A stretch of 64,000 nucleotides of DNA. It comes from Campylobacterota bacterium. Lineage in GTDB: Bacteria; Campylobacterota; Campylobacteria; Campylobacterales; Nitratiruptoraceae. The stretch covers positions 62,001 to 126,000 of the forward strand of contig JAADDW010000015.1 of the NCBI GenBank assembly GCA_013153715.1, in the 5' to 3' direction. Below are positions 1 through 18,731 of this stretch, piece after piece. Numbering within the stretch: position 1 is the stretch's first letter; each line of letters begins with the position of its first letter. Both the position numbers and the translations under genes were made by a program. The notes below the pieces were generated by a model. The model saw only the letters and a list, made by a program, of their open reading frames with translations, was not told where the DNA came from and searched no databases.

Positions 1-894
1 GCCCTCCACAGAATTGAGGGGGCCTACTCCCTCATCTTCTTGAGTCGGAGAAAGATGTTTGCCGTCCGTGATCCCCATGGCTTCCGTCCCCTCTCCATCG
101 GAAAGTTGAAGGAGGGGTGGGTCGTTGCCAGCGAGACCTGCGCCTTCGACCTCATCGGTGCCGAGTATGTGAGGGATGTGGTGCCCGGAGAGCTTGTGGT
201 CTTCGAGAAGGGCAAGGAGCCCCGTTCTATCCAGGTCTTCGAGCCGACCCCCCACAAGTGTGTCTTCGAGTATATCTACTTTGCCAGGCCGGACAGCCTC
301 ATCTACGGGAAGAGCGTCTATGAGTTGAGGAAGGCCATGGGGAGGGAGCTGGCCAAGGAGTACCCCGTCCAGGCCGATATGGTCGTTCCCGTACCCGATA
401 GCGGAGTGGCGGCGGCCCTCGGTTATGCGGAGGCCAGTGGAATTCCCTTTGAGATGGGGATCATACGGAACCACTATGTGGGGCGGACATTTATCGAGCC
501 GACCCAGTCCATCAGGGATCTCAAGGTGAAGATGAAACTCAACCCCATTAAGGAGGTGATCCGGGGGAAGCGGCTCATAGTCATTGACGATAGTATTGTG
601 CGGGGGACGACCTCCAGGAAGATTGTCGGTATCCTCAAGGAGTTTGGGGCCAAGGAGGTCCATATGCGGATTTCGGCCCCCCCCACCACGGGTCCCTGTT
701 ATTACGGAGTCGATACTCCGACCAAGGAGGAGCTCATCGCCTCCAAGATGAGTGTGGAGGAGACCAGAAGGTATATTGGAGCCGATACCTTAGCCTATCT
801 TTCAATTGAGGGACTACTGAGGAGTGTCGGTAACGATCAAAGCTACTGTATGGCATGTTTCGATGGAGATTATCCTGTCGAAAAGAGAGAGTAA
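1..894 (+). CDS. purF: Amidophosphoribosyltransferase PurF, 5'-truncated by window start
   Basis: Catalyses the first committed step of purine synthesis, transferring glutamine-derived ammonia to PRPP to give phosphoribosylamine. The frame is open from base 1 (ALHRIEGAYSL...), so the start codon and the N-terminal part of the Ntn glutaminase domain lie outside the window. Visible are the end of the glutaminase domain (FAVRDPHGFRPL) and the phosphoribosyltransferase domain with its PRPP-binding loop VIDDSIVRGTTSR. The C-terminus (SYCMACFDGDYPV) is typical of the family, so the gene looks complete at its 3' end. A radical SAM gene follows after 6 bases and is probably cotranscribed. Function is clear from motifs; only the missing N-terminus is unknown. 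Confidence 0.97.
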   Translation, partial: ALHRIEGAYSLIFLSRRKMFAVRDPHGFRPLSIGKLKEGWVVASETCAFDLIGAEYVRDVVPGELVVFEKGKEPRSIQVFEPTPHKCVFEYIYFARPDSLIYGKSVYELRKAMGRELAKEYPVQADMVVPVPDSGVAAALGYAEASGIPFEMGIIRNHYVGRTFIEPTQSIRDLKVKMKLNPIKEVIRGKRLIVIDDSIVRGTTSRKIVGILKEFGAKEVHMRISAPPTTGPCYYGVDTPTKEELIASKMSVEETRRYIGADTLAYLSIEGLLRSVGNDQSYCMACFDGDYPVEKRE

Positions 895-16374: not shown

Positions 16375-17475
16375 ATGAGACTGCTGTTGATCAATAAGAA
16401 TCCCGTTGTTTCCCGTATGATGCAGATGAGCGTCCCGAAGGCGGGCTTCGATATTGAGGAGTGTGAGAGCGTCTATGATCTGCCAACGGGGGAGTATGAG
16501 GTCGTTGTCATCGACGATGAGATGTACGACCAGAACTTCCTCCAGGACATCAAGCAGAATATCAAATATTACCAGCTGGGGATCATCACCTCGGCCAAGA
16601 GTGGCAACCTCCAGGATTTCGATTTTGTCCTGACCAAGCCATTTCTCCCTACCGATCTCATAGAGATTTTGAGGCGGGTCAAGGGGGAGATAGAGAATCA
16701 GAAGCAGAAGCTCCCTCCTCCTGTAGAGCCCCAGCAGAAAGATCAGGAGGAGTTTGGGAACTTTCTGAAGAGTGAGGAGAGTTTCTTAGGGACAGAGGAG
16801 CGGATTGTGGAGATAGAGGAGCCCCAGGAGGAGTCGCCCTTTGTCGTCCCCTCCCAGGATCGGGGGGGACTCTTTAAGGAGGAGGAGGTCCAGGAGGTGG
16901 CCCAGCTCTTGAAGGAGCCCTCCCCAGAGCCGACAATCTCCCTCAAGGAGGACTCCCCCTTTGGAAGGGAGGAGAGCTCCCCCTTCCCAGAGCCTGAAAT
17001 TACCCTGAAGAGTGAGGATCTCTTCGGTAAGGAGGAGAAGGTAGAGAGTGTGGAGGAGTTGGGAAAGGTGGAAAAGGAGGAGAAGGAGGATCCCTTTGCC
17101 TCCCTTGGTGCCCCCTTTGAGACCAAGGAGGAGGAGCTCTTCAAGAGCCCCTCTCCCCAACCCACCCCCCAGCCAGCTCCCGAACCTATAACCCGTCTCC
17201 AAGAGCCCCCTTCTATCGATGAGAGCCCTACCAACACCCCCATAGCCTCCTCTCCCCTCTCTACGACGGAACCCCCCATCTCGGCTGAGGCCCTCTTGGG
17301 AGAGGTTGAGGAGAAAGAGGTCGATGAGAGGGGTAAGGAGCAGAAGAAGCCGACCCTTGAGGATCTGAAGCGGGAGCTGGGCCGTCTCGATGTCCAGGGG
17401 CTCCGGGAGATTCTGGACGGCATGCAGTTGGAGATCACCATCAAGATCAGCTATCCGGACAAGAAAGATGTTTAA
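16375..17475 (+). CDS. Acidic protein with degenerate receiver domain, Cj1178c-like by position
   Basis: A 366-residue protein with three parts. Residues 1-105 resemble a receiver domain (LLLINKNPVVSRMMQ, VVVIDDEM, ITSAKSG, VLTKPF); the Asp and Lys positions are recognisable but the active site is atypical. Residues 110-320 are acidic, Pro/Ser/Glu-rich and probably disordered, with a recurring motif like LFGKEE, PFGREE and LFKEEE. The last 45 residues (PTLEDLKRELGRLDVQGLREIL...) form a helical tail. The gene directly upstream of gmk in C. jejuni (Cj1178c) also encodes a highly acidic protein. I chose the ATG at 16375 because GGGAGCG precedes it; ATG 16363 lacks a ribosome site. The stop overlaps gmk by 8 bases. 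Confidence 0.7.
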   Translation: MRLLLINKNPVVSRMMQMSVPKAGFDIEECESVYDLPTGEYEVVVIDDEMYDQNFLQDIKQNIKYYQLGIITSAKSGNLQDFDFVLTKPFLPTDLIEILRRVKGEIENQKQKLPPPVEPQQKDQEEFGNFLKSEESFLGTEERIVEIEEPQEESPFVVPSQDRGGLFKEEEVQEVAQLLKEPSPEPTISLKEDSPFGREESSPFPEPEITLKSEDLFGKEEKVESVEELGKVEKEEKEDPFASLGAPFETKEEELFKSPSPQPTPQPAPEPITRLQEPPSIDESPTNTPIASSPLSTTEPPISAEALLGEVEEKEVDERGKEQKKPTLEDLKRELGRLDVQGLREILDGMQLEITIKISYPDKKDV

Positions 17476-18091
17476 ACGGGGTGCCTGTCTCCTCCTCTCC
17501 GGCCCCAGCGGAGCGGGAAAGAGTACCCTCATCGGGGAGCTCCTCAGAGAGTTTGATGATATTTACTTCAGTATCTCCACCACAACCCGAAAGAGACGGG
17601 AGGGGGAGGTTGAGGGGAGGGATTACTATTTTGTCTCTCCCCAGGAGTTTCGGGAGGGGATTGAGAAGGGGCTCTTCCTCGAATGGGCAGAGGTCCACGG
17701 GAACTACTACGGAACCTCCCTCCAGCCCGTTCTCCAAGCCCTGGAGGAGGGGAAGTTGGTCCTCTTCGATATAGATGTCCAAGGCTTCCTCTCGGTCAAA
17801 AAGAGCCCCATCGCCTCTGTCACCACCTCTGTCTTCATCACTCCCCCTTCCCTGGAGGAGTTGAAGAGGCGGCTGGAGGAGAGGGGGAGTGACGATCCCG
17901 CCACAATAGAGAGGAGGTTGGAGAATGCCAGAAGGGAGATCGAGTATATGGGGGAGTATGACTACATTCTGGTCAATGATGACCTGGAGAGGAGCCGGAG
18001 GGAGATAGTGGCCTTCGGAACCGTCGCCCGCCTCAAACGGGATAGGGAGGAGGTGGAGGCCTTCATAGAGAGGTGGATCCATACCCATTAG
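17468..18091 (+). CDS. gmk: Guanylate kinase
   Basis: Phosphorylates GMP to GDP. The P-loop LLSGPSGAGKST is at about residues 9-20; STTTRKRREGEVEGRDYYFVS binds GMP and the LID region follows (RRLENARREIEYMGEYDYILVNDDLE). The length of 207 residues is normal. The start is MFKRGACLLL at 17468, overlapping the previous stop by 8 bases. The gene is normally followed at once by tatA and argS in Campylobacter; here nearly 400 bases of repeat-like DNA separate it from tatA. Confidence 0.97.
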   Translation: MFKRGACLLLSGPSGAGKSTLIGELLREFDDIYFSISTTTRKRREGEVEGRDYYFVSPQEFREGIEKGLFLEWAEVHGNYYGTSLQPVLQALEEGKLVLFDIDVQGFLSVKKSPIASVTTSVFITPPSLEELKRRLEERGSDDPATIERRLENARREIEYMGEYDYILVNDDLERSRREIVAFGTVARLKRDREEVEAFIERWIHTH

Positions 18092-18114: not shown

Positions 18115-18200
18115 CTAAATTCCCCTGACTCAATCAATAGTCAGGGCTTCCCGCTTCAACGGTTGCCTCACGGCAACCTCCCCAGACTCTCCGAGTCGTT
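18115..18200 (-). repeat. Transposon-end relic, IS200/IS605 right-end/omega-RNA-like, minus orientation
   Basis: Read on the minus strand this contains three perfect hairpins in a row: GACTC-gga-GAGTC (18085-18097 range end at 18185-18197), GGTTGCC-gtga-GGCAACC (18161-18178) and, last, CCCTGACT-ctattgat-AGTCAGGG (18123-18146). The linker between the last two reads GTTGAAGCGGGAAG. This GAAGCGGGAAGC-plus-terminal-hairpin arrangement is what I know from right ends of IS200/IS605-type elements, which overlap the 3' end of tnpB and its omega RNA. No tnpB coding sequence remains. The 5' limit is not clear. Confidence 0.55.
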
Positions 18201-18211
18201 AGTCCCCTATG

Positions 18212-18235
18212 ACAGCTTGGCTATCGCTGTTTTTT
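18212..18235 (+). terminator. Possible intrinsic terminator downstream of gmk
   Basis: ACAGC-ttggctatc-GCTGT followed directly by a run of T. The stem is only 5 bp, so it is weak, but the U-tract is the only good one in this gap and it would end transcripts leaving gmk. Confidence 0.4.
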
Positions 18236-18299
18236 GTGCTATTGTATGTTTATGCAATGGGGAAATTCATCTCCCTCCGATCTTGTTTGAATTTCGTTT

Positions 18300-18430
18300 A
18301 AAAGAGGGAGGGCTGGAGCGGTCCAAACCGATGGCTGTGGAGGTAGCTCTGGCGGGATCGGCCTCTCCGGTTGGCCAGTCATCTACCGATGAAACAGGAA
18401 GCTCCCCCTTCGGGGTGGGGGAGCTCACCT
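18300..18430 (+). repeat. Transposon-end relic, IS200/IS605 right-end/omega-RNA-like, plus orientation
   Basis: On the plus strand this ends with CGATGAAACAGGAAGC and then a perfect 9-bp hairpin, AGCTCCCCC (18400-18408) and GGGGGAGCT (18417-18425), followed by CACC. Upstream lies GATGGCTGTGGAGG, also reminiscent of omega-RNA scaffolds, and an imperfect stem in the GGCCTCTCCGGTTGGCC stretch. A short open frame through it looks like the degraded 3' end of a tnpB gene, but no zinc-finger or catalytic motif survives. Its end abuts the tatA promoter. It points in the opposite direction to the relic at 18115-18200. Confidence 0.55.
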
Positions 18431-18450
18431 CAATTTTAAGAAAGTTGTTG

Positions 18451-18456
18451 TATTAT
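18451..18456 (+). promoter_or_regulatory. Possible -10 box of tatA
   Basis: TATTAT in a T-rich context 30 bases before the tatA ATG and just downstream of the transposon-end relic. It would give tatA-argS their own promoter now that gmk is separated from them. Confidence 0.45.
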
Positions 18457-18485
18457 TTTGGGTAATTTTTCCTAAAGGAGCAGAA

Positions 18486-18731
18486 ATGGGTATGCCGAGT
18501 ATGCCTGAGTTACTGGTAATTCTTGCTATTGTGGTACTCCTCTTCGGAGCCAAGAAGATCCCCGAGCTGGCTAAAGGGATCGGAAGCGGAATCAAGAATT
18601 TCAAGAAGGCCATGAGGGAGGATGACGATGAAGTTGCCCAGACGACCCCTCCCAAAGAGGTGGAGAGGAAGGAACAGCAGGCCCAGGCCACTCCTCCCCA
18701 ACAGCAACCCTCTCAAGAGCCGAAAGCCTAG
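18486..18731 (+). CDS. tatA: Twin-arginine translocase subunit TatA
   Basis: An 81-residue protein with the TatA layout: a short N-terminal transmembrane helix ([16 protein letters not shown]), the hinge motif [14 protein letters not shown], an amphipathic helix, and a polar tail rich in Gln and Pro. It forms the pore of the Tat system, which the molybdoenzyme at 40.7-44.0 kb needs for export. The ATG has an AAAGGAG ribosome site. argS follows 21 bases after the stop, as in Campylobacter. Confidence 0.96.

Follow-up and report, generated by a model that had tools for sequence, protein, structure and literature searches.

Two probable miniature IS200/IS605-derived elements, head-to-head at a TTTAAA palindrome between gmk and tatA in a Campylobacterota genome

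The spacer between gmk and tatA in a Nitratiruptoraceae genome is most probably occupied by mobile DNA of a known kind. Positions 18115–18428 of the window, the 64,000-nucleotide stretch of DNA that was analysed, are read as two non-autonomous IS200/IS605-derived miniature elements (PATE/MITE type) placed head-to-head at one TTTAAA, with a probability of about 0.86. In each unit, a short left end would lead directly into the tail of tnpB, a segment that doubles as the omega-RNA scaffold, and then into the right end. The features of the region are as follows, with coordinates in the window, strand, and the basis of each assignment.

17468–18091, plus: gmk (guanylate kinase), the upstream neighbour; reading frame, with homologues in 30 of 31 genomes searched.
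18115–18302, minus: miniature IS605-derived element 1, with its right end at 18115 and its left end at ~18302; apparent from homology to units of genomes G009 and G015 and to a copy on contig C7 of the same genome.
18123–18146, minus: right-end hairpin of element 1, perfect over 8 bp; inverted-repeat scan, and covariation (helix 2).
18146–18163, minus: conserved right-end motif ACCGTTGAAGCGGGAAGC of element 1; alignment, and recurrence of the motif after tnpB in G009 and G015.
18161–18178, minus: scaffold stem GGTTGCC-GTGA-GGCAACC of element 1, perfect over 7 bp; covariation (helix 1).
18268–18302, minus: left-end remnant of element 1, comprising the inner hairpin arm and the outer AAACGAAATTCAAAC, the other arm being lost; alignment with intact left ends.
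18297–18302, no strand: palindromic TTTAAA, the inferred common target of both insertions; TTTAA precedes seven of eight units in relatives, and TTTAAACCTCA is the empty junction.
18302–18428, plus: probable miniature IS605-derived element 2, with its right end at ~18426–18428; covariance-model match (E 6e-4), and a start that aligns to a 108-bp unit.
18342–18387, plus: scaffold stem of element 2; single-sequence fold.
18385–18402, plus: conserved right-end motif ACCGATGAAACAGGAAGC of element 2; sequence and alignment.
18400–18425, plus: right-end hairpin of element 2, perfect over 9 bp; inverted-repeat scan.
18427–18465, plus: ancestral right flank with an undamaged conserved block upstream of tatA; matches ACCTCATATTAAGAAAG...TATTATTTT of relatives.
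18486–18731, plus: tatA, the downstream neighbour; reading frame, with gene order identical in relatives.

The preliminary description held that DNA had been inserted between gmk and tatA, and comparison of this junction in related genomes bears that out. The spacer measures 394 nt in the genome under study and 47–72 nt in 13 genomes of the same genus (47 nt in G008), a surplus of ~320 nt, and the inserted stretch can be refined to ~18115–18428. Three relatives, G001, G010, and G012, carry the junction TTTAAACCTCA free of any insert. The right flank of the insert, beginning at 18427 (ACCTCA), is ACCTCAATTTTAAGAAAG and matches ACCTCATATTAAGAAAG of G001 and G012, where it lies 3′ of TTTAA. The left flank of the window is not alignable to the relatives, and the empty-site evidence comes mainly from the right side. 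Among the 14 genus members read, the two-unit insert is present only in the genome of the window.

The insertions lie on the 3′ side of a fixed short motif and have no duplicated target, with TTTAA at 18297–18301 and the uninserted TTTAAACCTCA in the three relatives. Since the hexamer TTTAAA at 18297–18302 reads TTTAA on either strand, and both left ends adjoin this palindrome, one insertion on each strand would give the head-to-head order. The same junction has also been invaded in G004, a different species of the genus, whose gmk–tatA spacer is 227 nt long and holds an IS605-type miniature element of ~160 nt (L075, contig C52 of G004) with TTAC as its target. The left end of that element resembles the one beside tnpA on another G004 contig (C59), and its right end is 84% identical to the end that follows tnpB in G004. 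By these likenesses, the G004 insertion is an independent event of a different IS605 lineage.

The right ends identify the family of the two units. Both motifs and both perfect hairpins that had been described are present in the sequence at the positions given for them. The hairpin of element 1 has arms at 18123–18130 and 18139–18146, and that of element 2, which overlaps motif ACCGATGAAACAGGAAGC, has arms at 18400–18408 and 18417–18425; each encloses an 8-nt loop. The minus and plus motif blocks form an inverted repeat at 83%. Right ends of the minus type follow tnpB on G009 contigs C69 and C50 and on G015 contig C121. In G009, a genome of the same genus, the block starts ~33 nt after the match to the TnpB zinc ribbon, and the reading frame extends into the block. 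This recurrence, with the covariation given next, speaks against a chance resemblance.

An alignment of 14 homologous minus-type ends contains two stems, in which 96.9% of the cells in 15 base pairs are paired and 9 of the 15 pairs have changes on both sides. The covariation values were reached in none of 500 shuffles, and sliding the partners abolishes the signal. The minus-type scaffold thus has the signature of a conserved paired structure that terminates at the right end. A covariance model, R1, was built from this alignment with the plus end left out. R1 finds 15 ends at E ≤ 0.01 in the genome of the window, and it matches the plus end at E 6e-4 although that end is absent from the model. 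Across 200 genomes of the order, it also has hits in G056, G055, and G043, which represent three further genera; these hits lie 46–49 nt beyond the match to the TnpB zinc ribbon. Because none of these three contributed to R1, the identity of the right end is independently supported. The earlier proposal that these are IS605-type right ends overlapping the TnpB guide RNA is therefore upheld by homologous ends after tnpB in G009, G015, and the three additional genera, and both ends of the insert are recognizable as IS200/IS605-type right ends that overlap the putative guide-RNA scaffold. The omega-RNA model search proposed earlier brought no such support: Rfam yielded no meaningful match to the stretch at gathering or permissive thresholds. 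The candidate RAGATH-32 scored 13 bits against a cut-off of 41.8 and was rejected.

Element 1 is homologous along its full length, apart from one arm of the left hairpin, to gene-less units of ~226 bp in G009 and G015 and to a copy on C7. A search of the same genome with the inserted stretch returns further copies on C7 (75% identity over most of element 1) and on C35. The gene-less units of G009 and G015 occupy eight sites and combine this right end with a left end whose hairpin is intact (AATTCTCCCTCTAAAATC...GATTTAGAGGGAGATGAATT); TTTAA stands directly 5′ of seven of the eight. At its terminus, element 1 reads AATTTAG where the units of the relatives read AGTTCAC. The left end of this type adjoins tnpA on G009 contig C37 and lies ahead of tnpB on G015 contigs C211 and C60, a position that identifies it as the parent elements' own left end.

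The internal join between left end and right end is what separates a miniature element from a ruin. Element 1 shares this join with copies on C7, in G009 and G015, and, by inspection, on contig C48 of G104, a member of another family. Altogether, the short minus-type unit with the common join is found at ~10 sites besides the window, in four genomes. A join common to so many sites implies that the internal deletion came first and that the short unit spread later. It is improbable, then, that both units are ruins of full IS605 elements from which tnpA and tnpB were deleted after insertion, since separate deletions would not converge on an identical join in copies from different sites and species. 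In favor of such deletions are the uncertain left boundary of the plus unit and the presence, on C45 and C23 of this genome, of tnpB tails that have decayed but carry this right end. The preliminary description had likewise supposed these very copies to have lost their tnpA and tnpB, and for element 1 the shared join leaves that supposition without support. Because the join recurs elsewhere, element 1 itself appears to have jumped as a gene-less miniature element and not to be the leftover of a full one.

Element 2 is most likely a miniature element of a second subfamily, although this assignment is less certain than that of element 1. Its start aligns over 45 nt to a 108-bp unit of the same genome, with a score above all 500 of 500 shuffles; the likeness to this closest full-length kin is ~73% over those 45 nt. 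Partial copies of element 2 lie on C19, C11, and C14. No clear left hairpin is present in element 2, and RNAalifold gave no convincing consensus on four plus-type sequences, so the scaffold stem listed above is a single-sequence fold. A plus-strand reading frame was considered as a TnpB tail (score 34); 45 of 1000 shuffles reached that score, and the frame was dropped as evidence.

The 108-bp unit has a history of its own. It is gene-less and near-identical at five sites in the genome of the window: G000:C27:191-298 (L094), C3:28679-28786 (L099), C3:1-102 (L120), C37:13778-13879 (L119), and C43:10733-10823 (L097). Several of the five sit at contig ends. Near-identity at five places argues for recent copying, and the unit was thus apparently mobile not long ago, in an assembly without tnpA. 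Its sequence is also identical at 100 of 108 positions to the right end of a TnpB element with a 401-aa frame in a Desulfurobacteriaceae metagenome bin (L122, JALWGN010000029.1, ~345-560, minus strand). This likeness would reflect either transfer across phyla or a mis-binned contig.

The enzymes of the family are scarce in the genome of the window. No match to a Y1 (HUH) TnpA was found in its assembly, nor is there such a gene inside a unit. No OrfB domain was found in the assembly either; the full-length tnpB copies that the preliminary description suggested looking for are represented only by C-terminal TnpB scraps. The decayed tnpB tails on C45 and C23 (L101, G000:C45:7512-7598; L102, G000:C23:47661-47754) are probable remains of former full elements. 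The assembly consists of 48 contigs and breaks at related repeats, and multi-copy elements may be missing from it; tnpA and tnpB are nonetheless likely to be absent from the genome. In element 1, the alignment also shows disruption of a promoter-like box that the units of the relatives possess. Because there is no TnpA, only scraps of TnpB remain, and both the left end and the promoter of the minus unit are broken, the two units are most likely inert where they now stand.

How such units would have moved follows from the known behavior of the family. The TnpA of IS200/IS605 elements transfers the unit in single-stranded form to a position 3′ of a short motif, and TnpB is directed to that motif plus flank by an RNA made from the tnpB tail and the right end (PMC8612924, PMC11870625). 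By analogy, a Y1 TnpA acting in trans would have carried the units, single-stranded, to the place 3′ of TTTAA. A transcript spanning the scaffold, the right end, and part of the flank would match the unoccupied site beside TTTAA, and TnpB provided in trans could thereby bring back a copy that had been lost. The miniature elements would fit the role of passengers that use TnpA, and perhaps TnpB, in trans.

Upstream of the omega-RNA scaffold, the copies in G009 and G015 (L007, L008, L010, L012–L016) share a uniform box of extended −10-like type, which reads TGCTATAAT in seven of the eight. Such copies may be self-contained guide-RNA units, and tnpB is present in their genomes. It is unlikely that the genus carries mobile guide-only elements, composed of a left end, their own promoter, scaffold, and right end without a protein, which guide TnpB in trans; if it does, a full element's TnpB would protect gene-less copies, and the G009 and G015 copies, whose scaffold is intact, would be the active form and the window copy a dead one. 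That the window units themselves are omega-RNA genes still serving TnpB in trans is very improbable. Conservation of the scaffold and right-end structure and the uniform promoter-like box of the relatives' copies speak for such service; however, the box is disrupted in the window copy, and scraps are all that was found of TnpB in its genome.

Between the window copy and C35, 1 of 30 stem positions differs, against 13 of 44 remaining positions. This shows that the stems have been constrained over the interval since the two copies' common ancestor, mobile phase included, and does not demonstrate constraint after insertion. The perfect stems had been thought to exceed what simple decay would leave, a view that the relics of the same family in this genome do not support, as their stems range from perfect to broken. 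Intact stems are expected, as the structure was kept up throughout the family's mobile period. Most improbable of all is that the units are retained for a host function in the gmk–tatA spacer, whether as regulatory RNA, insulator, or terminator: the stems are intact in both units and change less than the rest, but the insert is confined to one of the 14 genus members, the constraint may go back to the time of mobility, related ends at other loci of the genome have decayed, and terminator-like calls are no more numerous than in shuffles, with none on the gmk strand here. Only one such call falls at the site, and it is the plus hairpin taken in the reverse orientation.

Read as two miniature elements, the unannotated insertion is accounted for as ordinary mobile DNA. 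The comparison also shows that right-end/omega-RNA segments have spread through the genus as gene-less units, so that neither special survival of decay nor a guide-RNA gene should be the default reading of a solo end. Should the G009 and G015 copies with promoters be transcribed in the presence of an active TnpB, they would offer a natural setting in which to test trans protection of non-autonomous elements by TnpB.

Several known systems share the plan of the window units. In ISDra2, the reRNA derives from the 3′ end of tnpB and the right end, the guide comes from the flank, and the TAM equals the insertion motif (PMC8612924). The likeness lies in the arrangement of tnpB tail and right end, whereas the window units have neither tnpA nor tnpB, their inferred insertion motif TTTAA differs from that of ISDra2, and their guide role is putative. 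The G004 miniature element has the same junction and the same plan but belongs to another IS605 lineage, with target TTAC. The PATEs of Haloquadratum walsbyi are short and transposase-free, have ends related to the IS605 type, make no target duplication, and in some cases arose by loss of the core (PMC3119063). Those are archaeal elements, whereas here an omega-RNA scaffold is recognizable through covariation. A common internal join at different sites, a trait of PATEs and IS605-derived MITEs, is seen in the minus type and weakly in the plus type. Of the palindromes that PATEs have near their termini, the right ones are perfect in the window, and the left ones are intact in the relatives but damaged in the minus unit of the window. 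Nearly the plan of the window units recurs in a PATE-like element from Halanaerobium hydrogeniformans, composed of 28 nt of left end, the last 58 nt of tnpB, and the whole right end (PMC7290912). That element is a single copy with which the present family contrasts in occupying several sites and species and in the damaged left hairpin of its window copy. By their sequence features, the window elements belong to the known PATE kind.
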